A DNA stretch of 64,000 nucleotides from Bacillota bacterium (lineage in GTDB: Bacteria; Bacillota; Dethiobacteria; DTU022). A program made the translations under genes and the position numbers. Below the pieces are notes generated by a model. It was not told the DNA's origin and ran no database searches. It saw only the letters and a list, made by a program, of their open reading frames with translations. Below, one piece after another: positions 31,248 through 47,780 of the stretch. The stretch lies in NCBI GenBank assembly GCA_033549065.1, contig JAWSUE010000009.1:4841-68840 (forward strand), given 5' to 3'. The stretch's first letter is position 1, and each line of letters begins with the position of its first letter.

Positions 31248-31895
31248 TTAGCGGTGCATATCAATATACTTTAATGCGTGGTACTTCAGGCTTTGTAAGT
31301 CAACACTCAGATCTGTATTGTGGACATAAACACCTTCGGGTACAGTTAGTTTTACCGGCACAAAGTTTGAAATTATTTTAACACCACTTTGCACGATACT
31401 ATCAAAAGCTGACTGAGCTTGTCCCGACGGAACAGTTAAAATGGCAACATCAACTTTATGTTTAGCAACGATTTCTTCCATTTTTGAGATATGCATAATT
31501 TCAACAGCAGTGATGTGCTGCCCGATAATCGCCGGATCTACATCAAATACGGCAACCACCTTAACATAAGGATTCTTTGTTACAGTATAGCGGGTCAGAG
31601 CGGTGCCGAGGTGTCCGGCACCTACTACAATAACTGTGGTTAAATTATTCAAACCGCTAACTTTCAGGATACATTGTCTTAACGAATCTGTATAGTAACC
31701 CCTTCCCCGGGTTCCGAATGCGCCAAAATGAGATAGATCTTTTCTGATCAGCTCGGCAGTAAAACCGGTTTCTTTACTTAAACTTTCCGAATTAACCAGT
31801 TCAATGCCTTTTTCAATCAAACTGTCCAGCACTCTCAAGTAAACCGAAAGTCGTTTGATCGCTAATTCTGGGTCTTTTCTACCTTGAACCATCAT
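31248..31895 (-). CDS. rex: Redox-sensing transcriptional repressor Rex
   Basis: It binds DNA when NAD+/NADH is high and releases it when NADH accumulates, controlling fermentation and respiration genes. The 215 residues have an N-terminal winged helix (about 1-80; KRLSVYLRVLDSL, KDLSHFGAFGTRGRGY) and a Rossmann NADH domain (VIVVGAGHLGTALTRY, about 89-104; VVAVFDVDPAIIG). It ends the long redox operon that starts at 44.9 kb. A repressor at the end of the operon suggests autoregulation, but I found no clear Rex operator (TTGTGAAN4-type) in the upstream gaps. Confidence 0.93.
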   Translation of the reverse strand: MMVQGRKDPELAIKRLSVYLRVLDSLIEKGIELVNSESLSKETGFTAELIRKDLSHFGAFGTRGRGYYTDSLRQCILKVSGLNNLTTVIVVGAGHLGTALTRYTVTKNPYVKVVAVFDVDPAIIGQHITAVEIMHISKMEEIVAKHKVDVAILTVPSGQAQSAFDSIVQSGVKIISNFVPVKLTVPEGVYVHNTDLSVDLQSLKYHALKYIDMHR

Positions 31896-31966: not shown

Positions 31967-34900
31967 TTACACGTGGCTGGAGTAATCAACCTGAGCAGAC
32001 AGCACCGGATCAATTGGATAGCCCAAAGCTTCAGCAAGTTCAATGAGTGTATCTGAATTGTTTTTCCCGGAAAGCGGAGCATAGGCCGGTTTTAATTCAC
32101 AAATCCTGCCTTCACAGTTAAGCACTGTTCCGGCAGTTTCAAGGTACGTAGCCAGCGGAAATACTACATTGGCATTCTGTAAGTTTGGATGATTATGCGC
32201 TGCAATAGATACCGTAAAAAGTTCCGGATCAGCAAGCTTTAGCTCAGCTGCTGAAGTGTCTCCGATCAAAAGCAACCCTTTGTAAGGCTTCAACTGCTCT
32301 GCAGCGAGTTTCTGATCACAGGTTTTATATCCGAATTGTGTATTCCCACTGGCAAGGCCCTTTGCAAAACCAAGTTTAATCAAACCCCTGGTATTACCAC
32401 CCCTGTAGAGGGTAACAATCCCGGAGCTCTCTTTTTTGCCGCTCAGGCTGAGTATCTCGTTTAAAAGCCCGTATTCTTCACTACTGATAAAATCCCCATC
32501 AACAACCAGAACCGGCTTTCTTGCAGAACGCAGCAGCCCGGCTATTTCGACCAGAACTGCCGGGTTATCACTGATAGCCTGTGGTAAGGACGCAAGCGCT
32601 TCATTTATTTCGGAACTGTTGATCGAAAGCTCATCTTCTATTCCGGCGCAGTAGGAAAGTAACGCTCTCAAGATAACAGTTAATTTACCGGGACTGACTA
32701 GCACGGAAAAGGCAGAATTATTAACAAGCCGATTTCCTGCAGTGCCGATAAAAGCAAGTTTCGCCTCATCCGCCAGCGCTTTACGTATCTTTTGAGCTAT
32801 AATTGGATAATCTTCAGGTAAATCGGTATCTATAGCCAAGATGAAATCACTTTCAGCAATCTCTTTATAGAATAATTGTCTGCCATTTTTTTCTGCTACT
32901 TCAGAAGGAAACCCGGTAGCATAAATATTCCCTGTTCCCAGTATTTCTTCGGCCAGCTTATGCGCAAGAACCATCTCTTCGTTGCATAGGGATGCAGATA
33001 AGACAACAGCCAGACTGTTTGCACCGTATTGATTTTTTACCCGAAGCAACCCGGAAGCTGCAGTTTTAAACGCTTCCGCCCAACTCGCCTCAGCGAGTTG
33101 GCCGTTATTCCGGACGAACGGTTTAGTGATCCTTTTATAATCCTGTGCAAATAGAGCTTCATATCTTCCCCTGCTGCAAAGATTGCCATCGTTAATATCC
33201 TGACGCAAAGGTGAATTTATTTCCGTGACCTGATCCGCCACTACATCAAGTTCAATGCTGCAGCCGATCCCGCAAAGTGTACAGGTGCTCTCAACAAGCC
33301 GTTCAGAGAGCCAGGGACCGGGCTTACTATATAAACCTTTTGCCGTAAGAGCTCCCGTAGGGCAGGCGGATACACATTGCCCGCAGGATTCACAGGTTGT
33401 TTCATTCAATGGCAGCTGCAAAGACGGGCTGACCACGGTATCATATCCGCGGTTTACCAGGCAAAGAGCGTTGGCTCCCTGAACTTCATTACAGATACGC
33501 ACACAGCTGGCACAAAGTATGCACTTGTTGGGATCCTGGATTATGTAAGGATGATCCCGCTTAATCGGGTAGCGCTTATTTTCGACTCCCAACCGCACGG
33601 TATCGATCTCCAGCTCTGTAGCCAGCCGACGCAAGGAGCATTTGAAAACATCCTGACAGCCGCAGGAAAGGCAGCGTTTTGTTTCTTTAACAACATCTTC
33701 ATCGGTTAACCCCTGGTTAAACTCTATAAAGTTTTGCCTGCGCTTTTCCGGAGATAGATGGTGTACCGGCAAACGGGCTTCTTTTGGATACTCGGAAAAA
33801 TCAGCAGGATCAAGTTGGTCTAACCGGCCCCTCGAGCAATTAAAGCTTTCCGGCCCGGAATTAACTTCAATACCGTTAAGGTAACGATCTATTGCCACTG
33901 CCGACTTCCTGGCTGCACCTACTGCTTCAACAACGGTTGCCGGACCGGTCACTGCGTCACCGGCGGCAAATACTTTTTCGACTGCTGTTTGACCTGTATC
34001 GGGGCAAGCTGCCAGGGTTTTGCCTTTGAGTTCAAGATTGCATAAGCAAGCATTTTCACTGTCCAGGGTCTGGCCGATAGCCATAATCACATTATCGGCC
34101 TCCAGTGTAAATTCAGAGCCTTCAATCACCAGTGGACGGCAGCGACCGCTTTCGTCAGGTTCACCAAGCTCCATTTGCACACATTCCACACCCTGGACAC
34201 CGTCAGAACCTAAAACAGATACCGGGTTTGTCAGAAAGTCAAAGATAATTCCTTCCTCTTCTGCTTCTTCAATTTCAACCAGGGCAGCAGGCATTTCATT
34301 ACGACTGCGTCGGTAAATTACATGGACCTCTTCTGCTCCCAGACGCAGAGCAGTCCGGGCAGCATCCATTGCGGTATTTCCACCGCCAACTACCGCTACT
34401 TTTTTACCCAGGGCCGCGGGATTACCCTCGGCCACACTGCGCAGAAAATCAATGCCTTTAAGGATACCCGGCTTATCTTCACCTTCCAGGTTCATGCCCT
34501 GTGCTGATTGGCATCCCAGACCAAGAAAAATCGCATCGTACTGTTGGACCAATTCATCAATGGTGAAATCTTTTCCAAGCACTTCTCCCAGACGAACCTC
34601 ACGGCAGAGATCGGCGATCAGGTTAATCTCTTTGTCGAGCAACGCTTTAGGCAAACGGTATTCGGGTATGCCAAAACGCATCATTCCACCCAACCTTGAG
34701 CTGCCCTCAAACAGGGTAACCTGGTGACCTTTCAAAGCCAGGTAGTAGGCAGCGGTCAAACCGGCCGGTCCACCACCGACCACCGCTACTTTTTTACCAC
34801 TGTCAGCAGCAACGCTTGGTCTGTAGGAGTCGATCATTTCCAGGTCGAAATCTCCTGCAAACCTTTTTAGATCACATATATTAACCGGTTCGTCAACCAG

Positions 34901-35374
34901 GTTGCGCCTGCACTCAGCTTCACAGAAACGCGGACAAACCCGACCACATATTGAAGGCAGGGGCATTTTTTCTTTTATCAAATCAGCCGCTTTTTTATTT
35001 TCTTTTCTGTCAAGCAGAGCGATATATCCCTGAATATCAATATGGGCGGGACAAGCCTGCTGACAGGGTGCAATACAATCGCCACAATGTTCTGACAGTA
35101 AAAGCTCCAGGGCAGTCCTGCGCATCTCATCTAACTGTTCATTGTTTGTAATTACATTCATACCTTCTTCCACCACGGTGCCGCAAGCGGCAACTGGTCC
35201 CCGCGGCCCACCGGTATCAACAAAACAGAGCCGGCAGGAACCAAAGGGCTTTATCCGTGGATCATAACAAAGGTGGGGAATGTCAATACCATTTTGCAGA
35301 GCTGTTTCCAGCAAATTGCTGCCTTTATCAGCTTTGATCTTTTTTCCGTTGATGCTAATCTCTACTTTCGGCAT
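31967..35374 (-). CDS. Large iron-sulfur flavoprotein: NuoG-like plus GltD/NfnB-like fusion
   Basis: The 1135 residues hold, in order, a 2Fe-2S ferredoxin domain (Cys 36, 47, 50, 64), a GltD-type Fe-S segment (HCGDCIAPCQQACP, about 96-109), an FAD site VAVVGGGPAGLTAAYY (about 196-211), an NAD(P) site VAVVGGGNTAMDAARTA (about 335), two 4Fe-4S motifs (CILCASCVRIC, CESCGQCVSACP) and a molybdopterin-oxidoreductase-like domain (about 690 on, CTLCGIGC). That last domain is short and has no catalytic Cys/Sec and no C-terminal cofactor domain, as in NuoG. I infer the NADPH/ferredoxin subunit of an Stn-like transhydrogenase. RBS GGAGG supports the ATG at 35374. Confidence 0.75.
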   Translation of the reverse strand: MPKVEISINGKKIKADKGSNLLETALQNGIDIPHLCYDPRIKPFGSCRLCFVDTGGPRGPVAACGTVVEEGMNVITNNEQLDEMRRTALELLLSEHCGDCIAPCQQACPAHIDIQGYIALLDRKENKKAADLIKEKMPLPSICGRVCPRFCEAECRRNLVDEPVNICDLKRFAGDFDLEMIDSYRPSVAADSGKKVAVVGGGPAGLTAAYYLALKGHQVTLFEGSSRLGGMMRFGIPEYRLPKALLDKEINLIADLCREVRLGEVLGKDFTIDELVQQYDAIFLGLGCQSAQGMNLEGEDKPGILKGIDFLRSVAEGNPAALGKKVAVVGGGNTAMDAARTALRLGAEEVHVIYRRSRNEMPAALVEIEEAEEEGIIFDFLTNPVSVLGSDGVQGVECVQMELGEPDESGRCRPLVIEGSEFTLEADNVIMAIGQTLDSENACLCNLELKGKTLAACPDTGQTAVEKVFAAGDAVTGPATVVEAVGAARKSAVAIDRYLNGIEVNSGPESFNCSRGRLDQLDPADFSEYPKEARLPVHHLSPEKRRQNFIEFNQGLTDEDVVKETKRCLSCGCQDVFKCSLRRLATELEIDTVRLGVENKRYPIKRDHPYIIQDPNKCILCASCVRICNEVQGANALCLVNRGYDTVVSPSLQLPLNETTCESCGQCVSACPTGALTAKGLYSKPGPWLSERLVESTCTLCGIGCSIELDVVADQVTEINSPLRQDINDGNLCSRGRYEALFAQDYKRITKPFVRNNGQLAEASWAEAFKTAASGLLRVKNQYGANSLAVVLSASLCNEEMVLAHKLAEEILGTGNIYATGFPSEVAEKNGRQLFYKEIAESDFILAIDTDLPEDYPIIAQKIRKALADEAKLAFIGTAGNRLVNNSAFSVLVSPGKLTVILRALLSYCAGIEDELSINSSEINEALASLPQAISDNPAVLVEIAGLLRSARKPVLVVDGDFISSEEYGLLNEILSLSGKKESSGIVTLYRGGNTRGLIKLGFAKGLASGNTQFGYKTCDQKLAAEQLKPYKGLLLIGDTSAAELKLADPELFTVSIAAHNHPNLQNANVVFPLATYLETAGTVLNCEGRICELKPAYAPLSGKNNSDTLIELAEALGYPIDPVLSAQVDYSSHV

Positions 35375-35425
35375 ATTATAATGGTCCTCCAAGTCGGTGA
35401 TTGTGTAAGGTAGTTCACAGAGTTC

Positions 35426-37222
35426 CTAGACAAGCTGTCTTGGTTTTGAATCAACTGTTACTGCTGCAAATTTACAGCTGTTCACGCAGAGACCGCAGCT
35501 TATGCATGTTAAGGGATCAATTTTGTGAACTTCTTTCTTCTTACCGGTAATGGCATCCACCGGACAATTCCTGGCACAAAGGGTGCAACCTGTGCATGCT
35601 GTCGTATCAATTTCATAGGTGATCAAGGACTTACATTTTTTTGCCGGACAATATTTTTCTTTAACATGGGCATCATACTCGCTTCGGAAATATCTAATTG
35701 TCGTCAAAACCGGGTTTGGCGCTGTCTGCCCGAGACCGCAAAGTGAACCAGCCTTCACCTTTTCGGCCAGTTCAACCAACAGATCAACATCCTCTTCCCG
35801 CCCTTCACCTTCAGTAATTCTTTCCAGGATCTTGAGCATCTGGTTGGTCCCAACCCGGCAGAATGTGCATTTTCCGCAGGATTCTTTCCGGGTAAATGAC
35901 AGGAAGTACCTGGCAACGTCTACCATACAGGTATCTTCATCCATAACGAGCAGTCCACCCGAACCCATAATTGCTCCGATTTTTTTGAGCGATTCGTAGT
36001 CCATGGGTGTATCGCCCAGTTCAGCCGGTATGCATCCACCTGAAGGCCCGCCGGTCTGGACTGCTTTGAACGGTTTGCCGGTGGAGATTCCACCGCCAAT
36101 ATCAAATACAATTTCATTGATTGTTGTGCCCATGGGAATCTCGATCAATCCGCCCCGCTTTATCTTTCCGGCCAGGGCAAACACCTTTGTTCCTTTACTT
36201 TCCTCAGTACCGAGAACATTGTAGGTTGATGCACCCAGGTTTAAAATACGAGGTACATTGGCAAATGTTTCAACATTATTAATCGAAGTCGGACAATCAA
36301 AAAGGCCTTGTTGAGCAGGAAAGGGCGGGCGGAAGCGGGGCATGCCCCTCTTCCCTTCAATAGACATTATAAGAGCCGTTTCTTCACCACAAACGAAAGC
36401 ACCGGCTCCTTCCCGGATAATAACTTCAAAATTAAAATCGGAACCCAGAATTTTTTCGCCGAGTAAACCCCTTGCTTCAGCCTGCCTGATGGCAATCTTC
36501 AGGCGGTGAATTGCCAGCGGGTATTCAGCCCGGATATATACATAACCAACCGATGCGCCAATAGCGTAACCGGCAATAAGCATTCCCTCCAGCACACTGT
36601 GCGTATCTCCTTCAAGAACGCTGCGGTCCATAAAAGCACCCGGATCACCTTCATCGGCATTGCATATAATATATTTCTGTGTTCCCCCGGCTTGACGGGT
36701 AAAACTCCATTTAAGGTGGGTTGGGAAGCCTGCTCCACCTCTGCCCCTCAACCCTGAGCTTTTAATTTCTTCGATAACCTCTTCCGGGGTCATCTGTTGG
36801 AGAGCTTTCTTAAGCCCTTTGTATCCGTCTGCATCGATATAACTCTGTATTTCTTCCGGATCGATCCGGCCGCAATTTTTTAGTAAGATCCGGTGCTGTT
36901 TCTCCAGAAAGTTCTGATCGTCAGTTTCGGCTTCCTGACCCAGGACAAGCAATTCAACGACCGGTTTACCGTGCCCGATATGCTCGTCAATGATCCGCAA
37001 GCCATCCTTCGGTTCCAGGTTACCGTATAAATAGCTCTGCCCGCCTGCTTCAATTACCTCGACCAGCGGTTCATTGTAACACATGCCCAGGCAGCCCGTT
37101 CGTTCCACTTTCAACTTGCTATCTTTTAGACGTTCCTGCATAACCTGGTATACCTTGGCCGCCCCACTGGCAATACCGCAGGTTGCAAGACCAACTTTTA
37201 TTCGATATTTATCATCCTGCAT
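35426..37222 (-). CDS. NuoF/HydB-like NADH-binding flavoprotein subunit
   Basis: This 598-residue subunit has a thioredoxin-like 2Fe-2S domain (about 1-110; TGCLGMCYNEPLVEV), the FMN/NADH domain with GLRGRGGAGFPTHLKW (about 175-190), an SLBB segment, the 4Fe-4S motif ESCGKCTFCRVGT (about 475) and two C-terminal ferredoxin motifs (CTGCTLCARNCP, CISCGLCVNSC). This is the layout of the NADH-oxidising, bifurcating-type subunit of HydABC hydrogenases and related complexes. The ATG at 37222 is preceded by AAAGGGGG and overlaps the NuoE-like gene by 11 bases; a longer frame to 37327 lies within that gene. No H-cluster hydrogenase subunit is nearby. Confidence 0.87.
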   Translation of the reverse strand: MQDDKYRIKVGLATCGIASGAAKVYQVMQERLKDSKLKVERTGCLGMCYNEPLVEVIEAGGQSYLYGNLEPKDGLRIIDEHIGHGKPVVELLVLGQEAETDDQNFLEKQHRILLKNCGRIDPEEIQSYIDADGYKGLKKALQQMTPEEVIEEIKSSGLRGRGGAGFPTHLKWSFTRQAGGTQKYIICNADEGDPGAFMDRSVLEGDTHSVLEGMLIAGYAIGASVGYVYIRAEYPLAIHRLKIAIRQAEARGLLGEKILGSDFNFEVIIREGAGAFVCGEETALIMSIEGKRGMPRFRPPFPAQQGLFDCPTSINNVETFANVPRILNLGASTYNVLGTEESKGTKVFALAGKIKRGGLIEIPMGTTINEIVFDIGGGISTGKPFKAVQTGGPSGGCIPAELGDTPMDYESLKKIGAIMGSGGLLVMDEDTCMVDVARYFLSFTRKESCGKCTFCRVGTNQMLKILERITEGEGREEDVDLLVELAEKVKAGSLCGLGQTAPNPVLTTIRYFRSEYDAHVKEKYCPAKKCKSLITYEIDTTACTGCTLCARNCPVDAITGKKKEVHKIDPLTCISCGLCVNSCKFAAVTVDSKPRQLV

Positions 37223-37763
37223 CTTCGCAATCCCCCTTTGAAGCAGATTGCTCAGAGTTTTTCCGGCGAACAGTTTTAAGTATCTTGCGAACATTTTCCG
37301 GGGATAGTTTTCCATGAGTCTCCTCATCTACAGTCATCACCGGGGCCAGACTGCAGCAACCGAGACAGGCCACCTTTTCCAGGGTAAATAAGTTGTCATC
37401 ACTGGTTTTTCCCGTTTTGGCTTTGATCTCGAACTGAATTGACTCGGTGATTTTGTCAGCACCGGCCAGGTGACAGGCAGTACCGTGACAGATCTGGATC
37501 AAATGCTCTCCAATCGGTTCCAACCTGAACTGAGCATAAAATGTAACTATACTGTATAGCTCGTTAACCGGAATCCCGGAAAATTCAGCTGCCCGTCGAA
37601 GCAAATCCGGAGAGATATAACCGAAAACATTTTGAAGGTCCTGCAAAATCGGTATCGCTGTTCCTTTACTATTAATATGTTTCTCAACAATTTTTTTAAC
37701 TGCAATTACAGGGTATTGTTGAGCCAGTGTTTTTAAGTTATCCGTCTTAAGTCCCAACTCCAT
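37212..37763 (-). CDS. NuoE/HydC-like 2Fe-2S subunit
   Basis: This 183-residue thioredoxin-like ferredoxin has the four ligands arranged CHGTAC (about 93-98) and CLGCC (about 133-137), as in NuoE. An N-terminal helical region (residues 18-75; VVEKH-like, LQDLQNVFGYISPDLL) is typical. It passes electrons to or from the NuoF-like subunit encoded next. The start is 50 bases after nqrF with no terminator, so the soluble complex is probably read through from the membrane pump genes. Confidence 0.9.
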   Translation of the reverse strand: MELGLKTDNLKTLAQQYPVIAVKKIVEKHINSKGTAIPILQDLQNVFGYISPDLLRRAAEFSGIPVNELYSIVTFYAQFRLEPIGEHLIQICHGTACHLAGADKITESIQFEIKAKTGKTSDDNLFTLEKVACLGCCSLAPVMTVDEETHGKLSPENVRKILKTVRRKNSEQSASKGDCEDAG

Positions 37764-37813
37764 ATAACTATTCTCCTTATTTCAATCTCTGAAGTATCAT
37801 TACAATTGAGCGA

Positions 37814-38896
37814 CTAGAATTTATCAAAAAAGATCTGTTCTTCCGATACACCGTTTCTTTTCAATGTTTCCATGGCAGCATCAATCATTTCCGGCGGTCC
37901 GCAGAGGTAAAACTCTTTATTCTCAAGTGATTCTTCATATCTTGGCACAGCGTCCGTAATATATCCTGTTTCGCCTTCCCAGTTATCATCCGGAGCAGGT
38001 CTGGAAAGAACAATATAATATTTGAAATTAGGATGTTTCTCTTCCAAGGCTTTCATCTCATCGTCCAGGAGAATATCCTTTTTTGTCCGACCACTGTAAT
38101 AACCGTGGGCATCGCGTGTCATGCCCCGTTCTTTAAGATGTAAAACAATAGATCTGATTGGGGCAATCCCGGTGCTTCTGGCAAGACAAATAATATCTTT
38201 ATCGGAATCCTCCTGAAGATAGAAGTCGCCATAGGGGCCGGTAATCTTGATTACATCACCAATTCGAAGAGCTTTATGGATATAGGTGGTGCAAAGCCCT
38301 TTCGGTATGTATCGGATTACAAAGTCGAGCATATCCTTCTGGCTGGGTGGTGAAGCGATAGAATAAGCGCGAAACTCCTCGTAACCGGGCACCAGTATTT
38401 GAACATACTGGCCGGGTTTAAATTCGATGACATTTGGTGAGAGCAATTTTAACTTAAGAAACTTAGTATCATAATTTAGATCCTCCAAAACCACTACTTC
38501 AGCAATATATTCCTGGGCATCCAGTAAATCCTCCGACATACTGACATCGATGATATCCTCCCTGATTTTAACCTGGCAGGCAAGCCTTACTCCTTCCTTT
38601 TTATCCCCGAGGGAGAGGAAGTTTTCTTCCGTGGGCAGTATCTCACCGCCACCACTATCAACTTTAACCTTGCAATGGCCACAGGTGCCCTTGCCGCCAC
38701 AGGCGGAAGGAATATATATTTTATTCTCCGATAAAGCATCAAGCAGAGTGCCGCCGGATGAGATAGTGAACTCCTTTTCTTTATTGATCCTGAGCAGTAT
38801 TTTTTGGTTACTGCCGATCAAAAAATCGGCAATAATCAAGACAAGTGTAATGCCTACCAGCAGGGAAACCAGGATTAATACTGACTGCAAGTCCAT
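37814..38896 (-). CDS. nqrF: Na+-translocating NADH dehydrogenase subunit F
   Basis: This NADH-oxidising subunit has one N-terminal membrane helix (about 5-25), a 2Fe-2S ferredoxin domain (ACGGKGTCGHC near 66-76, fourth Cys in RLACQVKI), an FAD domain with RAYSIASPP (about 178), an NADH domain with CLARSTGIAPIRSIV, and the C-terminal FYLCGPPEMIDAA plus an aromatic end. The 360 residues are slightly shorter than proteobacterial NqrF (about 408). It occupies the position where rnfB would be in an rnf cluster. The usual GGGAG in the NADH loop reads ARSTG, a variant. One base is shared with nqrE (position 38896). Confidence 0.92.
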   Translation of the reverse strand: MDLQSVLILVSLLVGITLVLIIADFLIGSNQKILLRINKEKEFTISSGGTLLDALSENKIYIPSACGGKGTCGHCKVKVDSGGGEILPTEENFLSLGDKKEGVRLACQVKIREDIIDVSMSEDLLDAQEYIAEVVVLEDLNYDTKFLKLKLLSPNVIEFKPGQYVQILVPGYEEFRAYSIASPPSQKDMLDFVIRYIPKGLCTTYIHKALRIGDVIKITGPYGDFYLQEDSDKDIICLARSTGIAPIRSIVLHLKERGMTRDAHGYYSGRTKKDILLDDEMKALEEKHPNFKYYIVLSRPAPDDNWEGETGYITDAVPRYEESLENKEFYLCGPPEMIDAAMETLKRNGVSEEQIFFDKF

Positions 38897-39480
38897 TATA
38901 ATTCCACCATCCCTCCGAAGCCCATAAATCCAAGGGCCAAAATGCCTAGAATAATCATAACCAGACCGGGACCCTGGAGTCCCTTCGGGGGATCCCCAAT
39001 CAAATTGAGCTTTTCCCTGATGCCTGCAACCAGCACAATAGCTATGAAAAAGCCGATAGAAGAACCGAGCGCGAAGAAAATTGCCTGACCAATAGTATAT
39101 TCACGTAAGACCATGAAAAGAGTAACGCCAAGTACAGCACAGTTTACCGTTATAAGCGGCAGAAATACCCCAAAAGCTGTATAGAGAAAGCGCATGTATT
39201 TCTCCAACAGCATCTCGAGGAGCTGTACTGTGGCAGCTATTGTTATAATAAAGACCATTAAAGAGATAATCTCACTGCCGGTAGGGATTAAAATCAGGTT
39301 ATAAATCAACCAGTTGATCAATGATGTTATCGTAACAACAAAAATTACAGCCGCACCCATACCAGTCGCTGTTCTGATGCTTTTTGATACCCCGATTGTC
39401 GGACACATTCCCAAAATATAGACCAGAACAATATTATGGGTTAGAATTGCTGCTAAAAATATAGATAAGGTTTGGCTCAT
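38896..39480 (-). CDS. nqrE: Nqr subunit E (RnfA homologue)
   Basis: This 194-residue membrane protein has six helices and belongs to the NqrE/RnfA family, which together with NqrD/RnfE forms inverted halves of the ion path and binds an iron centre in the membrane. LGMCPTIGVSKS (about 23-34) and FLPLITVNCAVLGV (about 105-118) carry the conserved cysteines. The C-terminal GIREKLNLIGDPPKGLQGPG and LGFMGFGG follow NqrE more closely than RnfA. It is followed directly by nqrF. Confidence 0.9.
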   Translation of the reverse strand: MSQTLSIFLAAILTHNIVLVYILGMCPTIGVSKSIRTATGMGAAVIFVVTITSLINWLIYNLILIPTGSEIISLMVFIITIAATVQLLEMLLEKYMRFLYTAFGVFLPLITVNCAVLGVTLFMVLREYTIGQAIFFALGSSIGFFIAIVLVAGIREKLNLIGDPPKGLQGPGLVMIILGILALGFMGFGGMVEL

Positions 39481-39518
39481 GGCATTTTCTCCTCATATTT
39501 ATTTAAACTTAATCTGGA

Positions 39519-40187
39519 TTAAGCAACCTCGACAACCGTTTCCTCAGCAGGGGTTGCACCTGATTCTTCTACAGCACCCTGTAAGCTGCGAACCACCCAA
39601 ACAATTATAGCGAGAAGGAAGAACCCACCCGGAGCCATAGCCATTACCAACCAGTTGGTCCATGCCTCCCCTACCACACTAATATTCAATAATGTGCCAA
39701 AGGCCAACACTTCTCTAACAGCTGAAAGGATTAGAAGAACAAACGTGTAACCCAAACCGTGCGCGAAGGCATCGGTCAGGGAAAACCCGACCGGATTTTT
39801 CAGGGCAAAAGCCTCACACCTGCCCATTATTATGCAGTTTGTAATTATCAGTGAAACGTAAGGGCCCAGGGCATTACTGATAACCGGAAAGAAACCTTTA
39901 AAGAACATATCTACTGAAATAACAAAGGTTGATATTATTATCATGTAGGTAATCATTCTAAGTCTCATGGGAATATATTCTCTAATCACGGCAGTTGCCA
40001 GCGAAGCGACCATAACTACAAAAATAACAGCCAAACCCATGGCAATACCATTTTCCAGCCTATTGGTTACTGCGAGAGCAGAGCAGATCCCTAAAGTAGA
40101 AGAGGTAATCGAGTTTTTTCTCCATATGCCATCCTTGAGCAGTACAAAGGGCTTAGTGTAACTTAATCGATACCAACGGCTAGCCAA
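39519..40187 (-). CDS. nqrD: Nqr subunit D (RnfE homologue)
   Basis: This 222-residue membrane protein has about six helices. GICSALAVTNRLE (about 33-45) and LIITNCIIMGRCEAFALKNP (about 112-131) are the family's conserved segments; MGRxEAFA is closer to NqrD than to RnfE. APGGFFLLAIIVWVVR near the C-terminus also follows NqrD. It starts with TTG at 40187, immediately after the nqrC stop, with GGGGGG 8 bases upstream. Confidence 0.9.
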   Translation of the reverse strand: MASRWYRLSYTKPFVLLKDGIWRKNSITSSTLGICSALAVTNRLENGIAMGLAVIFVVMVASLATAVIREYIPMRLRMITYMIIISTFVISVDMFFKGFFPVISNALGPYVSLIITNCIIMGRCEAFALKNPVGFSLTDAFAHGLGYTFVLLILSAVREVLAFGTLLNISVVGEAWTNWLVMAMAPGGFFLLAIIVWVVRSLQGAVEESGATPAEETVVEVA

Positions 40188-40188
40188 C

Positions 40189-40818
40189 TCAGTTCCCCCC
40201 CAATTTTTCCTTGATTTCCCTGATATTCCGCCTGAGCATATTCTCCAAAGCCTGACTGGTCATGGTAGCTCCCGTTATACCTTCGATTTCATTATCTGCG
40301 GAAACCGTCCTTCCCGCCGGTAAGATTACCAGCTGCGGATCGACAGATAATCCCCGGAACTGAGCCAGAAATTCCTCTTCAGTAATACGCCCACCCAATC
40401 CCGGCGTTTCCTGCTGTTTAAGTATAACAAGCCCTTTTAAGCTATTTAGATCCGGCCCCAGGGCTAAAATCCCGGAAACAAGACCCTGATGACCCCTTCC
40501 GGTAAACATGAAGGCAATGCTTCCATCACTGCTTCGATATAATGTCAACTCATCGATCTCTTCAGTGGTAATATTATCCATGTATACCTGCTCAGCAAGC
40601 TCCGGGCTATGTTCCAGATCAAGTGCCTTGAGTATAAGCATCCTGGTTTCCAGATCCAGCGTTTCATTCTCCAATGGGATCAGGTAGCTTACACCCATTA
40701 ACAGGCCAGACGAGAGCGTACCGAGAATCAGTATGTAAACCAACCAACCGATCTTTTCCAGAATATTTTTTTTAATCCTTAACATCCTGTCATTCACTAC
40801 TGTCGCGTCATGGTACAT
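40189..40818 (-). CDS. nqrC: Nqr subunit C, covalent FMN protein (RnfG homologue)
   Basis: The 209 residues have one N-terminal membrane helix (about 22-44) and an extracytoplasmic FMN-binding domain. The motif EIEGITGATMTSQAL near 178-192 contains the threonine that carries FMN through a phosphoester, and QQETPGLGGRI (about 132-142) is the conserved NqrC segment. An ApbE flavin transferase would be required and is not in this window. The gene overlaps nqrB by 11 bases. It is one of two RnfG/NqrC-type genes in the operon. Confidence 0.88.
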   Translation of the reverse strand: MYHDATVVNDRMLRIKKNILEKIGWLVYILILGTLSSGLLMGVSYLIPLENETLDLETRMLILKALDLEHSPELAEQVYMDNITTEEIDELTLYRSSDGSIAFMFTGRGHQGLVSGILALGPDLNSLKGLVILKQQETPGLGGRITEEEFLAQFRGLSVDPQLVILPAGRTVSADNEIEGITGATMTSQALENMLRRNIREIKEKLGGN

Positions 40819-41905
40819 TGTGTGACAAGCCCTCCCTTCCCAGTGGTCTGAACCTTATCTTTAAAACAATAGTGTCAATTAAAGGAGTAAAAGCATTCAT
40901 CAGTAAAATACTGAAGACCACACCTTCTACAGAACCGGAAAAACTTCTGAACAGTACCGTTAGCATGCCGAGCAATAAGCCAAAAACCCATTTTCCAGGT
41001 CCGGTAAAAGGAGATGTAATCGGATCGGTGGCCATAAAAAACGCACCAAAAAGCAGTCCCCCCGTAAGAAGTTGAAACATGGGAAGAGCTACCTGGTTTG
41101 GAAAGTAGTAGTGGCCGATACTGGAAAACAAAACCACGGAGCCAAGGTAAGCCAACGGCACTCGCCAATTACTTACTCCGGTGACTATTAAGAATAACCC
41201 GCTTAAAATTATACCAATTCGAAATGTTTCTCCCATTGAACCGGGAGCCAGTCCAAATATAAGATCATAATACGTGTAGGTAATGATTTCCCCGGCCCGG
41301 TATGAAATAAGTGGTGTAGCCGATGTGATAAGATCCGCCCCGTAGTTGAAAAAACCACCAAACCCTCCCGGCATCGGATGCTGCCATACTGATGTCATAT
41401 AAGAAGGAAATGAGACTGTGATAAAAACACGTCCGACAACAGCAGGATTAAAAATATTGCGCCCCGTACCTCCAAATACCTCTTTTCCAAAGAAAACAGC
41501 AAATACAGAGCCAATTGCAACAATCCAAAGCGGCAATGTGGGGGGTAAGATCAGCGGAAAGATTAGGCAGGTTACCAATAGACCATCTGCCTGAAACCTT
41601 TTTTTCCTGAAGACAGCAAATAAAATTTCGGTCATTCCCCCAAAAAAATATGAAACAAGAATCATCGCCACGATTCTCCATCCATAAAAGTAAACAGCCG
41701 CCAGAGCAATAGGTAGAAGGGCCAATACTACCAGAAACATGTATCTTTTGGTACTCAAATTATCAACTAAACCGGGAACCAACCGGGTTCCATCTCCGGG
41801 GCTGACAAAAAATGAACCAATTGATTTCAACAGAGGTTTATATGCTACCTGTGTTTCTTTTTGCATTTTTATATTAAGATTTTGTTCCGGTTTGTTCATC
41901 GCCAA
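40808..41905 (-). CDS. nqrB: Nqr subunit B (RnfD homologue)
   Basis: This 365-residue membrane subunit has about ten helices and carries covalent FMN and part of the sodium path. GKEVFGGTGRNIFNPAVVGR (about 144-163) and MATDPITSPFTGPGKW (about 291-306) are hallmark segments. The flavinylation region reads LITSATPLIS where NqrB has SGAT, a relaxed form with the threonine kept. At 365 residues it is shorter than Vibrio NqrB (about 412), mostly at the N-terminus. It starts 2 bases after the RnfC-like gene. Confidence 0.9.
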   Translation of the reverse strand: MAMNKPEQNLNIKMQKETQVAYKPLLKSIGSFFVSPGDGTRLVPGLVDNLSTKRYMFLVVLALLPIALAAVYFYGWRIVAMILVSYFFGGMTEILFAVFRKKRFQADGLLVTCLIFPLILPPTLPLWIVAIGSVFAVFFGKEVFGGTGRNIFNPAVVGRVFITVSFPSYMTSVWQHPMPGGFGGFFNYGADLITSATPLISYRAGEIITYTYYDLIFGLAPGSMGETFRIGIILSGLFLIVTGVSNWRVPLAYLGSVVLFSSIGHYYFPNQVALPMFQLLTGGLLFGAFFMATDPITSPFTGPGKWVFGLLLGMLTVLFRSFSGSVEGVVFSILLMNAFTPLIDTIVLKIRFRPLGREGLSHNVP

Positions 41906-41907
41906 GA

Positions 41908-43350
41908 TTACCCTTCCTGCCCCAGGCAGTATTTTTCAACTGTATCTTCTTTCAACCCGGCTTCAGGTTCTGTAAATCCATACTCAATAAGTCTTTGCTG
42001 ACCCAGCTTTATATGCCTGGCCACAGGAATTTTAGAGGGACAGATATAGGAACAGAGGTTGCATTCAACACATTCAAAAATGCCATACCTGATTAACTCA
42101 TTGCTGATTATGTTTCTCCGAGCATATTTATCAATCAGATGAGGAATAATCCCCGCCGGGCAAATCTCTTCGCAATATCCGCAAAATATGCATGGTTTTA
42201 CTTCATCATAAATATTGGGGCTGCAACCCCTGCCTTTTAAAGGACTGATCGCTGAAAGTAATGACCAAGGGCGCTGAACTTTGATATTTTTCGATACGGC
42301 TGTCAGGCTGGTTATAGTCCTGTCTACAGGCAATGAGAAATCGGCGAGAGCTCCGGATGTCAGCGGATTATTGGGTATGATCATCCAATTTGAATTTGTT
42401 TGATCCAGGTAAATGCCGGTTATTGTTTCAATTGGCGTCCCTACCCGAACTCTGATATTTATATTCTCTTTCCATCCCGGACCGCACAGGGCAATGATAG
42501 TTTCAATCACAGGCTTCCCTTCGACCACTGCATCATGGACATTTAAAACAGTTCCTACCGATAAAACCGCGATACCTTCAGCGTCAACAGTTTTTCTGTC
42601 ACGTTTGCCAAGGATCGTCGCAGCCAACACCCGATCATTTCCCTGCGGATAGCGGGGAGGTAGTGAATAGAAGGTGAGCCATTTTAAATCTTCTGTTTTC
42701 TGAATCAATTCCCGTTTTATCTCGCGCCGGTTACGGTTAATCGCTAAATGAATATTTGCCCGGGGCATTATTTTCTGTAATATTTTTATTCCTTCAATAA
42801 AGTGGGTACATCGTTCCCCGGCTAAAAGAGCGGGCAGGGAGAGATTATAAGGTCTGTCTTCAATGCCCTGAATAATCAAATCGCTTACATCACGGCCGAC
42901 ATTTGAAGAAGTCTTGAACCTGGTTGGTATGCCTTTACTGTCAAGAGAGGTTGCTCCCGAGGAATAAAGCAGTGTTTCAATCTTTTCCAGGGACAACAAC
43001 TGCCAGTTCCGGTTATTTCCGGCTAAAGGTTGCCAGTCGGGATTAGAGTCTGCCGTGATAATCACGGCATTGATCGGGCCTGTTGAATATTTCAGCTTAG
43101 TAATTCTTTCAACATTTCCATTGATACTTGCGTGGACCGGACTGGAAACACCATGATCGTCCCTGCCGATGATCTGTCCTGCTTTAACTTTATCCCCAAC
43201 CGTAACAAGAGGCTTAACTTCACGGCCAAAACCCTGTTTCAGCGGTATAACCACCATGGGTGGGAGAACTGATTCAATCACTTTCTCCCGGGGTTTGTCT
43301 TCACAGTTGAAATAATAGCCACCGTGGAATGTTTTTTTTATCACTTTCAC
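41908..43350 (-). CDS. RnfC-like subunit with degenerate NADH/FMN loop
   Basis: At 480 residues it follows RnfC, not NqrA: N-terminal FHGGYYF and PVHASINGNVERI (barrel-sandwich), and two C-terminal ferredoxin motifs CIFCGYCEEICP (387-398) and CVECNLCSYICP (427-438). In RnfC the NADH/FMN site contains GLGGAGFPT followed by AECEPY; here the aligned residues read SLDSKGIPT and IEDRPY, so the glycine loop and a key acidic patch are lost. I infer that it no longer oxidises NADH but still exchanges electrons through its clusters, perhaps with ferredoxin. It replaces NqrA as the first pump gene. Confidence 0.85.
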   Translation of the reverse strand: MKVIKKTFHGGYYFNCEDKPREKVIESVLPPMVVIPLKQGFGREVKPLVTVGDKVKAGQIIGRDDHGVSSPVHASINGNVERITKLKYSTGPINAVIITADSNPDWQPLAGNNRNWQLLSLEKIETLLYSSGATSLDSKGIPTRFKTSSNVGRDVSDLIIQGIEDRPYNLSLPALLAGERCTHFIEGIKILQKIMPRANIHLAINRNRREIKRELIQKTEDLKWLTFYSLPPRYPQGNDRVLAATILGKRDRKTVDAEGIAVLSVGTVLNVHDAVVEGKPVIETIIALCGPGWKENINIRVRVGTPIETITGIYLDQTNSNWMIIPNNPLTSGALADFSLPVDRTITSLTAVSKNIKVQRPWSLLSAISPLKGRGCSPNIYDEVKPCIFCGYCEEICPAGIIPHLIDKYARRNIISNELIRYGIFECVECNLCSYICPSKIPVARHIKLGQQRLIEYGFTEPEAGLKEDTVEKYCLGQEG

Positions 43351-43430
43351 ACCTCGTCACTAAAACTTTTCCAGGCATTAGGCATTGCTGACACTATTAT
43401 CATTTGTTGCAAGTAGCATTTACTGTCGGA

Positions 43431-43500
43431 GGGTAAGAACCGTTTCTATCTAGCCTAATTGGGCGGTTACTTTGATTGATCGGGCTATCGGTTCTTACCC
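43431..43500 (-). repeat. Long inverted-repeat hairpin between lipoprotein and rnfC-like gene
   Basis: GGGTAAGAACCG (43431-43442) and CGGTTCTTACCC (43489-43500) are perfect 12-base arms. An inner TAGCC/GGCTA pair extends the stem across a small asymmetric loop, leaving a central loop of about 27 bases. There is no T-run after it. It sits in the 167-base intercistronic gap 43351-43517 and could be a processing or stabilising hairpin, or a dispersed palindromic element. Confidence 0.6.
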
Positions 43501-43517
43501 TTTTCAATTTTGAACTC

Positions 43518-44075
43518 TTAGTAACGGCCTCTGTTAAGCCCGTCTCTGATCGCACTGGTAATCTTGGTTCCCCGCATCGTGGCTGAGGTCCAAACATCAA
43601 CATCTGCAACAACTTCACCGCTTGCTTCCACATCAGAAGCAGCAACTTCAGGTGAATCAACCAAAATACCAATTTCTGTGATGTTTTTTCCTTCCAGCCA
43701 TCCGACTAATTGCTGGTACTGACCGGACAAATTTTCAACATCCATCTGCGGCCATGCGTTTTCAGGATTCTCGGGATCCAGGAAATCATTGCCTCCGAAG
43801 AAGAGGGTTCTAAGCGAGATTTCTTCAATCACATTGTCTTGCAGGTAAAATTCTATACTAACCTGTTGGACCTTTCTGTCATGATAGGTGCCCCGGTACC
43901 TGCCATCCGGATATATTCCTTTTTCTTCGGCCGGTAAAACAAGCCCCGTTGTTTCTGCTGGTGACGAACCCTGACCTCCGGGGTCGGCCGTATCCTGGAT
44001 CCCGCATCCTACGATTAATAAAGAAATGGCTGCCACAAATACGATAATTATGAAAAATAACAGATTGCGTTTCAC
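43518..44075 (-). CDS. Lipoprotein with FMN-binding-like domain
   Basis: This is a 185-residue protein with a signal peptide and lipobox LLIVGCG (Cys about 24). After a linker, YPDGRYRGTYHD and a beta-rich stretch resemble the FMN-binding (PF04205-like) domain. The C-terminal DVWTSATMRGTKITSAI is in the place of the D-x-x-S/T-G-A-T-x-T-S flavinylation motif, with SAT instead of SGAT. Covalent flavin is therefore possible but uncertain. It lies upstream of the pump genes and may exchange electrons with the RnfG-like and NqrC flavins outside the membrane. AAGGAGG precedes the ATG. Confidence 0.65.
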   Translation of the reverse strand: MKRNLLFFIIIVFVAAISLLIVGCGIQDTADPGGQGSSPAETTGLVLPAEEKGIYPDGRYRGTYHDRKVQQVSIEFYLQDNVIEEISLRTLFFGGNDFLDPENPENAWPQMDVENLSGQYQQLVGWLEGKNITEIGILVDSPEVAASDVEASGEVVADVDVWTSATMRGTKITSAIRDGLNRGRY

Positions 44076-44272
44076 TACCTTTGAACCTCCTTCATTTTTT
44101 TATTGATGCAGTTAATAACTGTTTATACAACCAATCTTTGACTATCATCTTTCATCTTTTTTGCGTGCCTGGAATCATTTTTGTTTATTTCAGAATTTAT
44201 ACAATTTAATAACATTTAGGAAAGTTATAACGCTCACAAGGACGTGTAAAAAATATATTAACGAAAACATAT

Positions 44273-44869
44273 TTAATAGATTGAAGAAGCTGCGACAAAG
44301 TCCATCGCCTGGACTACTCCTTTAACAACAGCCTCGGAAGAAACAGTTGCCCCGGTTATAATATCGATCTCGGCCATGATGATACCTTCAAGTTCCTGTT
44401 CGACATCACTGGGCATGAAATTTGAAATTCCCCGAAATTGTCCGAGGAACAGATCGCCTGCTATTTTATCACCTATACCAGGTGTTTCTTGATGCTTTAG
44501 AATAGCCACATTTTTTACCTCACCCACAAAATCGACCAAAGTTAAAATCTCGATAGCATCTCCGTTAAACCCTTTCGACTCATTCAAGACTACTGCGGCA
44601 AGAACTTCGCGGTTTTTAACTCCAAAATAGATATCTGCGCCATTTTCCATCGTTACCAGCTTGTATTCATCTGCTTCCGGCATCATTTTCTCCAGCATCG
44701 CCATCAATCGCTCATGTTCGTTGGCAGCAATAATCGGTTCTGTTAATTGATTGGTAATGGATAAAGTTAAGCCACTCAACGCTCCTAACACAGTCAAAAC
44801 TAATACATAGCGCAGGCCTGTTTTAAACCAATTTGTTTTTTTAACTACTTGCTGTTGCAGTTCCGCCAC
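44273..44869 (-). CDS. RnfG-like FMN-binding membrane protein
   Basis: This is a 198-residue protein with one N-terminal membrane helix (about 21-42) and an external FMN-binding domain. ILKHQETPGIGDKI (about 127-140) and DIITGATVSSEAV (about 173-185) are the RnfG hallmarks, with the TGAT threonine expected to carry FMN. It is a second copy of the function encoded by nqrC, and closer to RnfG. The GTG at 44869 is chosen for AAGGTGGGG 7 bases upstream; the GTG at 44881 overlaps that site. It is the first gene of the long redox operon. The 197-base gap before the lipoprotein gene holds a 13-base palindrome CAGTTAATAACTG (44109-44121) and no other clear signal. Confidence 0.85.
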   Translation of the reverse strand: MAELQQQVVKKTNWFKTGLRYVLVLTVLGALSGLTLSITNQLTEPIIAANEHERLMAMLEKMMPEADEYKLVTMENGADIYFGVKNREVLAAVVLNESKGFNGDAIEILTLVDFVGEVKNVAILKHQETPGIGDKIAGDLFLGQFRGISNFMPSDVEQELEGIIMAEIDIITGATVSSEAVVKGVVQAMDFVAASSIY

Positions 44870-45031
44870 TAGTAACCCCACCTTTTTCTAACTTAAATTC
44901 TAAAACCTGCTGCCTATTAAATCTATCAGGGAATATATTGATTTTTTTTATACAGGTAAAATACCGTAATATTAGTTGTTTACCCACCCTTACACCTCGT
45001 TTATATTGGGAAATAATACTATCCGGGGATG

Positions 45032-45060
45032 TTGACAATATTTGCGTTCTGTAATAATAT
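45032..45060 (+). promoter_or_regulatory. Sigma-A promoter of the PhnD-like sensory operon
   Basis: TTGACA (45032-45037), a 17-base spacer and TAATAT (45055-45060) form a near-consensus promoter 77 bases before the TTG start of the lipoprotein gene. Confidence 0.8.
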
Positions 45061-45064
45061 TATG

Positions 45065-45098
45065 ATATACTATAATATCTATAGAGATTATAGTATAT
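45065..45098 (+). promoter_or_regulatory. Perfect inverted repeat over the transcription start, putative operator
   Basis: ATATACTATAAT and ATTATAGTATAT are perfect 12-base arms around the 10-base spacer ATCTATAGAG. The element starts 4 bases after the -10 box and covers the expected +1, so a bound dimer would block transcription. It may be the site of the response regulator encoded downstream or of another regulator. The rest of the gap 44882-45136 shows no gene. Confidence 0.55.
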
Positions 45099-45136
45099 AA
45101 AATAAGATTTTAGTAAAGACGACATGGGGGATCCTT

Positions 45137-46147
45137 TTGCTTACCGGTAAGGTAAAACGTCACCCTTTTCTGATTATCCTCCTGCTGTTTCTGACTGGTT
45201 TAATAGCAGGCTGTCAACCTGTTTATCCACAAATTAACCTAAAACAACCGGAAGATATCGAAGCGATCACTGTTCCCACCCCACACTACCGACCGAATAT
45301 TCCTGTTTCTTTCAATTCGGACACACCTTATGTCCGCATTGCAATCGCTCCGACAGTTTCACCAGCGGTAATTCGGCAAAACTATCGCAAACTTTCCGTT
45401 TACATACCGGAGAAACTGGAACAACCCGTTGAACTTATTTTTCGATCTACCAATTCGGAAATTAACCAACTGATCATTCAAAATCTTGTTGATGCTGCCC
45501 TGGTAGAAAGCTGGTCTTACGTTATTCTAAATGAAAGCGATGACATTGAACTGCTGGCTGTTCCACAAGTAAATGGTAATACATACCATTATTCTTATGT
45601 AATCGTCTCGGCCAACAGTAATTATTACAAACTTGAAGACCTGAAGAATCAAAAATTTATATTTACAGATCCACTTTCATTTCCAGGGAAACTTTACGTC
45701 AGTTACCTTCTTGCCCAGATGGGAGAAACCCCTGACACTTTCTTTTCCAAATATATTCATAGTTACAGCAACGACAGTTCCATTATTGCAGTAGCAGAAC
45801 AGTGGGTTGAAGGCGCAGCAGTGGACAGCCTGGTTTATGATTACCTGGTGAACGACAATCCGGAATTAGAAAATAAAATCAGAATCATCGAGACTTCGCC
45901 ACCAATTGGCAATCCTCCTTTGATTATCAGCGCAAAAGCCCAACCTGAACTAAAACAGAAAATAAAAAACCTGTTTTTCTCCATGCACAGAAATGCAGAG
46001 GGACAAAATGTTTTGGCTGACATGAAAATTGAATCCTTTGTGCCTGGACAGGATGAAGATTATGATATTATCCGGAGTATCATGAACGAAATCCAGCAGA
46101 GCTTAGAAGAATTAGCCATCAAGCAGCAACAGAATTCAACAAACTGA
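45137..46147 (+). CDS. PhnD-like periplasmic-binding lipoprotein
   Basis: The 336 residues begin with a lipoprotein signal peptide (TGLIAGC lipobox, Cys near 26) followed by a PhnD/SsuA-type substrate-binding fold: YVRIAIAPTVSPAVIRQNYRKL (broken by the family's typical turn), VDAALVESWSYVIL, KFIFTDPLSFPGKLYVSYLL and VEGAAVDSLVYDYL. Members bind phosphonate, phosphite or other small anions. No permease or ATPase is adjacent; a sensor kinase follows by 39 bases, so this protein likely senses a ligand for the kinase. The start is a TTG with GGGGG about 8 bases upstream. Confidence 0.8.
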   Translation: MLTGKVKRHPFLIILLLFLTGLIAGCQPVYPQINLKQPEDIEAITVPTPHYRPNIPVSFNSDTPYVRIAIAPTVSPAVIRQNYRKLSVYIPEKLEQPVELIFRSTNSEINQLIIQNLVDAALVESWSYVILNESDDIELLAVPQVNGNTYHYSYVIVSANSNYYKLEDLKNQKFIFTDPLSFPGKLYVSYLLAQMGETPDTFFSKYIHSYSNDSSIIAVAEQWVEGAAVDSLVYDYLVNDNPELENKIRIIETSPPIGNPPLIISAKAQPELKQKIKNLFFSMHRNAEGQNVLADMKIESFVPGQDEDYDIIRSIMNEIQQSLEELAIKQQQNSTN

Positions 46148-46186
46148 TCAGAGATATGCTGCTGATCCGAAACGGATGTCAATTAT

Positions 46187-47623
46187 ATGAGAAATACGTT
46201 CCGATTAATCCATAAACTGTCATCCCCGGGAATTCGTTTTAAGTTAATTGTTATCGTTTTTGGTGCAACCATACTGATAACTTTATCTGCCATATTCTAT
46301 ATGCATACCTTTTTAATTACGACCCTGGCCGATCAGCTGGATAAAAGAGTCGTTTCGATAGCTCGTGATGTTGCCGCCCGCAGTATGGAACCAATTCTTA
46401 CAAATAATCTTTATATGCTGTACCAACTAGCTTATCAAACCATGGATAGCAACGAAGATTTAATATACATATTTTATATGGATAATAATGGTAGTATTAT
46501 GGCCCATACCTTTCAAGACTACTTTCCGCCTGATCTTTTAACTATAGAACACGAGTCTGAGGACGGTATTAATAGTATCAAAAAATTCCAAACCGAAGAA
46601 GGGGTCCTCAGAGATGCAGCTGCCTATGTTTTCCCCGGTCCTGAACCCGATATAACAGTCCGCGTTGGCCTGGTAGATTACAGTTTGCAGGAAGCCCTGG
46701 CCATATCAATACGCAGGCTTTTACTTGTTTCAGCCATTACTTTTGTCTTAGTGAGTTCCGGCATATATTTCATTACTACCTTCACAACAATCAAACCGCT
46801 TAATAACCTTTTGAAACTGGTTCAGGCTGTGACAAAAGGTAATTATTCCCAACAGGTTACAACAAAATCACGGGACGAGCTGAGCATACTGGCCAAAGCT
46901 TTTAACGATATGACCTGGCAACTTGAACAATCAAAACAAACACGGGACCGATTGATGAAAAAAATCATCCACTCGCAGGAAGATGAACGCCGCCGAATAT
47001 CGCGGGAATTACATGACGAAACGGGGCAGATGTTCTGCACCCTGATGATATCTCTGCAGTTTCTGGAGAATGCTGATAACTTGAACGAGCTAAAAGAAAA
47101 AACGGCAGAATTTCGTCAGTTATTGCAGCATTCAGTTGAACAAGTCCGCCAGCTAGCCTGGAAGTTAACCCCCGCTCCTTTAATTGATCTGGGATTAAAA
47201 TCAGCCGTAGAATTAATGATTAAATATTACAGGAATTCTTCTGATTGGGATATTATTTTACAAATTGAAGGAATGGAAAATCGCCGGCTGCTTTCGGATA
47301 TAGAGACCTCTGTTTACAGGGCTATTCAGGAATCCTTAACCAATATTTCACGTCATGCCTGTGCTGATAATATAAGTGTCTTTATGAAATACTATGAAAA
47401 TAAGCTGATGGTTCAGATCAAAGATAACGGTGTAGGCTTTGATCTGAAAAAACAGGCAGAAGAGCGTGGTTCAAAAAGCAGTATGGGTCTCATTTCTATG
47501 CAGGAAAGAATTTCATTGGTGGGAGGAAAGCTGGAAATCGAATCCGCTCCCGGCAAGGGAACCACCATTTACATTATTATTCCTCTGGTATCACTGGGAA
47601 ATGATACTCTCGGGCATGGATAG
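46187..47623 (+). CDS. Membrane sensor histidine kinase, NarL-partner type
   Basis: The 478 residues have two membrane helices (about 20-42 and 178-202) enclosing an extracellular sensor region of about 135 residues with a Cache-like pattern (DVAARSMEPIL, LIYIFYMDNNG). A HAMP domain (about 203-255) follows, then a HisKA_3 segment whose phospho-acceptor His is in SRELHDETGQ (about 277), and an HATPase domain (NNGVGFD-like IKDNGVGFDLKKQ, then GLISMQERISLVGGKLEIES). It pairs with the regulator 157 bases downstream and probably reads the PhnD-like protein upstream. Confidence 0.9.
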   Translation: MRNTFRLIHKLSSPGIRFKLIVIVFGATILITLSAIFYMHTFLITTLADQLDKRVVSIARDVAARSMEPILTNNLYMLYQLAYQTMDSNEDLIYIFYMDNNGSIMAHTFQDYFPPDLLTIEHESEDGINSIKKFQTEEGVLRDAAAYVFPGPEPDITVRVGLVDYSLQEALAISIRRLLLVSAITFVLVSSGIYFITTFTTIKPLNNLLKLVQAVTKGNYSQQVTTKSRDELSILAKAFNDMTWQLEQSKQTRDRLMKKIIHSQEDERRRISRELHDETGQMFCTLMISLQFLENADNLNELKEKTAEFRQLLQHSVEQVRQLAWKLTPAPLIDLGLKSAVELMIKYYRNSSDWDIILQIEGMENRRLLSDIETSVYRAIQESLTNISRHACADNISVFMKYYENKLMVQIKDNGVGFDLKKQAEERGSKSSMGLISMQERISLVGGKLEIESAPGKGTTIYIIIPLVSLGNDTLGHG

Positions 47624-47780
47624 TTGTACTAATACCGGGATCCTGCCACTTGGCATATTTATAGACTGTAGTTTAATAGAGTCTCACAGGTTAATAACAT
47701 AAAGCATCCAATATGCCGCAGCGGTATAGAACTAACAGAGGTCTCCGGTAGACAGATCACTTGGTTAGGAGGAAAGTTAA

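Follow-up and report, generated by a model that had tools for sequence, protein, structure and literature searches.

A six-gene operon assigned to the NQR lineage encodes an NqrA-like subunit with two [4Fe-4S] motifs

The six-gene operon

The window analyzed here is a 64,000-nucleotide stretch of contig JAWSUE010000009.1 (assembly GCA_033549065.1) from a Bacillota bacterium of the class Dethiobacteria, and its central element is a set of six genes on the minus strand (37814-43350) related to both the Na+-translocating NADH:quinone oxidoreductase (NQR) and the RNF complex. The six open reading frames (ORFs) are tightly packed, with spacers of 1-50 bp or short overlaps. Pfam and NCBIfam called the first one, hereafter subunit A, as RnfC_N, Complex1_51K and Fer4, and the following ones as NqrB/RnfD, NqrC/RnfG, NqrD/RnfE, NqrE/RnfA and NqrF (Table 1). 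Thus the order of an RnfC-like protein followed by NqrB to NqrF, and the two [4Fe-4S] motifs in the first subunit, were recovered as an earlier note on this DNA had described them. The NCBIfam scores of most ORFs were below the curated nqr cut-offs and were divided between rnf and nqr models. The scores for nqrA, nqrB, and nqrF were 44.5, 235.8, and 272 bits compared to cut-offs of 321, 349.9, and 295 bits, respectively, and none passed.

For NqrC and NqrF, the comparison was made at the level of motifs. The flavin-binding Thr of subunits B and C, the [2Fe-2S] Cys of D, E, and F, and the flavin adenine dinucleotide (FAD) motif of F were all kept. The transmembrane, [2Fe-2S], FAD, and NAD domains of NqrF were found in the last of the six genes, and no RnfB polyferredoxin was present among the genes at 31248-48449, which bears out the view that NqrF stands in place of RnfB.

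Table 1. Features of the six-gene operon and of its neighbours (positions in the window).
Feature	Position	Strand	Remarks
NqrA, very probably cluster-bearing ("RnfC-like" in the earlier note), 480 aa	41908..43350	-	RnfC_N, Complex1_51K, Fer4; groups with NqrA, not RnfC; RnfC/NqrA fold in AlphaFold2 (AF2) model
Degenerate loop for flavin mononucleotide (FMN)/NAD, SLDSKGIPT (RnfC form G[ML]GGAxFPT)	42922..42948	-	GxGG..FP in 21/21 RnfC, 0/23 relatives
First [4Fe-4S] motif CIFCGYCEEICP	42157..42192	-	8/8 cluster Cys in 22/23 relatives
Second [4Fe-4S] motif CVECNLCSYICP	42037..42072	-	Canonical NqrA retains only ..LCxFVCPSK here
NqrA-type segment, shortened remnant	42202..42288	-	Full form in most relatives FxxPGxxxxSYSxxFLSA...TNxHGExRP; absent from RnfC
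NqrB	40808..41905	-	NQR-type N-terminal extension; FMN Thr (TSATPL); GG..E (FFGGMTEI)
NqrC	40189..40818	-	FMN site GITGATMTS
NqrD	39519..40187	-	Cluster Cys GIC / TNC
NqrE	38896..39480	-	Cluster Cys GMC / VNC
NqrF	37814..38896	-	Transmembrane anchor, [2Fe-2S], FAD domain; NAD loop altered to RSTGIAP
StnA-like (NuoE family), downstream	37212..37763	-	Domain annotation
StnB-like (NuoF family, C-terminal 2x[4Fe-4S]), downstream	35426..37327	-	Domain annotation
StnC-like GltD/NuoG fusion, bifurcating transhydrogenase, 1141 aa	31967..35392	-	Top PDB matches 9bov (E 4e-243) and 8oh5 (StnC, E 3e-226)
Rex, NADH/NAD+-sensing repressor	31248..31895	-	
Predicted lipoprotein, possible flavinylated motif WTSATMRG	43518..44075	-	No Pfam match
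Additional RnfG-like FMN_bind protein	44273..44881	-	Domain annotation

Clusters, Loop and Fold of Subunit A

The GxGG(A)xFP loop of RnfC was found in every RnfC of the alignment (21 of 21, with the A in 20) and in none of the 23 relatives of the window protein, where the position mostly reads SL[DG]xxGIPT. Judged from these residues, the FMN/NAD pocket is lost from subunit A, as the earlier note had proposed. Together with the replacement of RnfB by NqrF, this loss argues that NADH electrons would enter through NqrF, a point on which we agree with that note.

The window protein has all eight cluster Cys, as do 22 of the 23 relatives, which span Bacillota and Omnitrophota; one relative (L023) is short of a single Cys. 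Canonical NqrA could be aligned through the cluster domain, where only the last two of the eight Cys remain (LCxFVCPSK) and the other six are replaced. Between the barrel domains and the clusters, the segment FxxPGxxxxSYSxxFLSA...TNxHGExRP occurred in 21/23 relatives, 4/4 NqrA, and 0/21 RnfC, and the window protein itself has only a shortened remnant of it. The AF2 model of subunit A (predicted local distance difference test 82, predicted template modelling score 0.85) matched the fold of RnfC best (TMq 0.79), followed by NqrA (0.68).

Phylogenetic Placement

Maximum-likelihood trees were built separately for A, B, D, and E, with canonical NQR represented by four operons only. A search for relatives of a metagenome-assembled genome (MAG) of Victivallaceae supplied one further locus, L134, which encodes at 1080-2444 a divergent NqrA-like protein with 8/8 cluster Cys and a loop nearer to that of NqrA, and which has a polyprenyl synthase gene upstream. 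Each of the four trees had a branch that separated all RNF sequences from the window, its relatives, L134, and canonical NQR. The support for this split was 100/100 for A, B, and D and 100/99 for E, and the split of A remained at 100 in the Shimodaira-Hasegawa-like approximate likelihood ratio test (SH-aLRT) after removal of the FMN loop, the segment, and the cluster domain. The branching among the relatives, L134, and canonical NQR was less firm, with L134 and canonical NqrA forming long branches.

Because all four trees place the operon on the NQR side and most relatives carry the NqrA segment, subunit A was identified as a cluster-bearing NqrA. Since it has all eight cluster Cys and canonical NqrA is cofactor-free, the operon is a variant of the NQR lineage and not an ordinary NQR. 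We hold this identification of the six genes with high confidence. The earlier note had taken them for a hybrid of RnfC with NqrBCDEF, and the same evidence speaks against it; a patchwork of RNF and NQR genes was likewise rejected, as A, B, D, and E all group with NQR.

Reyes-Prieto et al. (2014) proposed that RnfC, after the loss of RnfB, lost its FMN, its NAD site, and its cluster Cys to become NqrA (PMC4014512). The cluster-bearing NqrA looks like the transitional state predicted there. The trees are unrooted, and it is parsimony that favors the direction in which the clusters were lost as NqrA arose. The family, which combines the input and core of NQR with retained cluster sites, matches the predicted intermediate between RNF and NQR and makes it testable what the clusters do and in which order FMN, the NAD site, and the clusters were lost. 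According to recent reviews and structures, NqrA carries no cofactor (PMC12174285, PMC11889175). No description of a cluster-bearing NqrA was found in the literature searched, which leaves out subscription papers, and its novelty is therefore provisional.

Distribution and Operon Variants

Relatives of subunit A are scarce in the class of the window, with 4 of 98 genomes carrying one; a single-protein scan of contigs gave no relatives, while an alignment query did. The order A-B-C-D-E-F, which the earlier note had suggested looking for in related genomes, was found in genomes G057, G086, and G088, in Candidatus Frackibacter WG13, in two more members of its family, of which one has a single-contig genome, and in an Omnitrophota MAG (L024). 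Because this order repeats in other genomes, it is not due to chance, and an operon confined to one genome was rejected given the relatives in other Bacillota and in Omnitrophota. The Omnitrophota search found subunit A in 17 of 285 genomes. In the eight Omnitrophota regions that were fetched, the genes after A are B, C, D, and one of the NqrF or NqrF-NuoE type; the E position of one of them (L153) holds an unnamed ORF of 210 aa.

At two loci, L136 (8062-11361, the same genome region as L023) and L160 (4533-7974), the anchor and [2Fe-2S] domain of NqrF are fused to NuoE, a NuoF with C-terminal 2x[4Fe-4S] follows, and the FAD/NADH domain of NqrF is absent. This exchange of the input for NuoE/NuoF supports electron entry at the [2Fe-2S] domain. 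The family widens the range of NQR-type pumps to include anaerobic Bacillota and Omnitrophota, and it provides naturally occurring swaps of the input module.

Comparison With Known Systems

The window operon resembles Na+-NQR, such as that of Vibrio cholerae, in the NqrBCDEF set and its order, the NqrF input, the N-terminal extension of NqrB, the tree placement of A, B, D, and E, and the NqrA-type segment in most relatives of its subunit A. It differs in the two [4Fe-4S] motifs of its NqrA, whereas canonical NqrA has no cofactor, as well as in a shorter NqrC and in scores below the NCBIfam nqr cut-offs. The cluster motifs and fold of RnfC and a homologous membrane core are shared with RNF, from which the operon differs in having NqrF, in lacking RnfB and the FMN/NAD loop of RnfC, and in the position of A, B, D, and E outside RNF. 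RnfC-type adaptors are known families, including PrdC and the RnfC encoded beside methylene-tetrahydrofolate reductase in acetogens. They also reuse the RnfC fold for electron delivery, and the window protein matches the PrdC model, but they do not lie within a six-gene Nqr-type operon.

NqrBCDEF without NqrA was reported in Pseudothermotoga, C. ultunense, and A. metalliredigens (PMC4148951, PMC5924567). Like these anaerobes, the window has nqrBCDEF and, in this operon, no canonical nqrA. It may differ from them in carrying a gene for a cluster-bearing A directly upstream. One locus of the same kind was met here (L133, 662-4587), with NqrBCDEF, no A gene upstream, and an NqrB without the N-terminal extension.

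Electron Acceptor and Role of the Clusters

The quinone site of NQR has been placed at the N-terminal extension of NqrB, and RnfD is without this extension (PMC12174285). The window NqrB carries an extension of the NQR type. Directly 3' of nqrF, MenA-like and polyprenyl-synthase genes were found in L024, L153, L156, L157, and L158; the synthase alone follows nqrF in L154 and L155, and MenA lies further down in L136 and L160. The quinone-lipid genes after nqrF in Omnitrophota are pointing to NADH:quinone oxidoreduction. Searches for quinone markers covered the MenB, MqnA/D, UbiA, and MenG families only. Frackibacter (G098) gave a match to the MqnA/D family (2e-70) and one to the MenG family (1.8e-69). 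The UbiA-family matches in the genome of the window were one MenA-like protein (L093, 6674-7687) and one fragment at a contig end. At locus L068 of G086, genes for rnfD, a MenA-like prenyltransferase, and a Rex-like protein stand side by side.

The best explanation, to which we assign a probability of about 0.7, is a Na+ pump of the NQR lineage with a cluster-bearing NqrA, a likely quinone acceptor, and clusters that serve as a cytosolic port. If the predicted cofactors occupy their sites, electrons would enter at NqrF and pass from NADH to FAD and [2Fe-2S], cross the membrane via the [2Fe-2S] cluster of NqrD-E, and return via the FMN of NqrC and then the FMN and riboflavin of NqrB, with Na+ presumably exported as in known NQR. 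From NqrB they would most likely reach a prenylated quinone at the surface site of this subunit, as in NQR. The NqrA of the pump would retain both [4Fe-4S] sites inherited from an ancestral RnfC, minus the FMN/NAD pocket, and its clusters, at the riboflavin-to-cytosol position of RnfC, would maintain an electron port on the cytosolic side that a soluble partner could use. For the acceptor and the cluster role taken jointly, we consider the odds about even. It is possible but rather unlikely that the clusters form a second, cytosolic redox port and that the complex, as it pumps Na+, splits or merges electrons between membrane quinone and a soluble carrier. Were it true, the NuoE/NuoF swap in L136 and L160, of a kind used in bifurcating complexes, would make these a Na+-pumping, electron-bifurcating NADH dehydrogenase.

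Several observations weigh against the quinone-reducing pump. The genome of the window (97.8% complete) and G088 (97%) gave no MqnA/D match, no MenB match above the cut-off, and no strong MenG match, and their MenA-like proteins scored just under the menA cut-off (98.3 and 96.4 bits, respectively, versus 102.15 bits). Quinone use in the window's organism is thus putative and may depend on a scavenged or unrecognised head group. The conservation of the eight Cys suggests that the clusters matter, and a plain NADH:quinone reductase would leave that unaccounted for. The NAD loop of the window NqrF is also unusual, with RSTGIAP for GGAGMAP. A similar loop, RNTGIAP, was seen in L018 (6474-7553), and GGAGMAP or a near form elsewhere; the altered loop is confined to these two related genomes (window 37814-38896; L018).

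Some of these observations would suit a complex in which the clusters are the main outlet, passing electrons from the riboflavin of NqrB through the two [4Fe-4S] to a soluble acceptor with a potential above that of NADH, with no quinone in the window's organism. The lack of recognised head-group genes, among the families searched, in its genome (G000) and in G088, the 8/8 Cys of 22/23 relatives, and the use of the same outward route by RnfC (PMC9588780, PMC11889175) speak for it. Nevertheless, several relatives include quinone-lipid genes in their operons, the NqrB extension that forms the quinone site of NQR is retained, and no partner reductase is consistently adjacent, so we regard this outlet as possible but rather unlikely. 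That the clusters are instead a functionless relic on the way to canonical NqrA, which works without cofactors after losing 6/8 Cys, would agree with the missing Cys of L023; the retention of 8/8 Cys in 22/23 proteins over Bacillota and Omnitrophota makes a relic improbable.

A branch to the outside, with electrons leaving at NqrC for flavinylated extracellular lipoproteins, is somewhat less improbable than a relic, and second paths of this kind were proposed for some RNF (PMC8238504). In L018 and L017, FMN_bind lipoproteins are encoded next to the operon, FMN_bind and ApbE lie near it in L136, multiheme cytochromes occur nearby in L016 and L024, and the window itself has an RnfG-like protein upstream of the operon. 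However, the window lipoprotein has no recognised FMN domain, and the conserved clusters of NqrA and the NqrB extension would be left unaccounted for. The earlier note had favored an ion-coupled exchange between NADH and ferredoxin with the RnfC-like clusters as the ferredoxin port, and two ferredoxin-type clusters on a cytosolic subunit, as well as adjoining Stn genes (NADH/NADPH/ferredoxin), would be consistent with it. In the conserved core, electrons that move from NqrF towards subunit A drive the export of ions (PMC12174285). The step from NADH (about -320 mV) to ferredoxin (about -500 mV) would then have to run uphill and pump at the same time (potentials from PMC9588780 and PMC5924567), and the reverse flow, by homology, would dissipate both gradients. 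Because of these energetics, which are poorly compatible with the core polarity, this exchange was ranked as very unlikely; moreover, the genome carries a complete ordinary Rnf for the NADH-ferredoxin reaction, and the MenA-like and polyprenyl-synthase genes of several relatives point to quinone.

Neighbouring Genes and the Rest of the Genome

The operon runs on past nqrF into StnABC-type transhydrogenase genes and then rex. A GltD/NuoG fusion adjoining NuoE/NuoF is the StnC arrangement (reference PMC10482914) and is present here; the closest solved relatives of the fusion are electron-bifurcating NfnABC/StnABC transhydrogenases (PMC10482914). Upstream of the operon, a PhnD-like binding protein, a histidine kinase, and a response regulator are encoded divergently on the plus strand (45137-48449), and the operon of L016 also adjoins a kinase/regulator pair. 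The remaining genes of the window are housekeeping genes with no bearing on the six-gene operon.

The assembly of the window comprises 2.39 Mb. A separate rnfB, which the earlier note had considered as a sign of two ordinary complexes, does exist elsewhere in this genome. It sits in a complete rnfCDGEAB, apart from the six-gene operon, and since this Rnf has its own rnfC, it leaves the operon in the window unexplained. The search of the genome for A subunits covered relatives of the window protein and not canonical nqrA (TIGR01936), and a very divergent nqrA could escape it.

On contig C9 of the same genome (L006, 4087-10293), rnfC and rnfD come immediately after the genes for a formate dehydrogenase and its iron-sulfur subunit, and the part of the contig that was read contains no further rnf genes. 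The formate dehydrogenase carries a twin-arginine-like signal, and its reading frame seems to be interrupted by an internal stop codon that may encode selenocysteine. Mrp-type antiporter genes adjoin this locus, and its rnfC-rnfD may represent a half-Rnf that passes formate electrons to NAD+.

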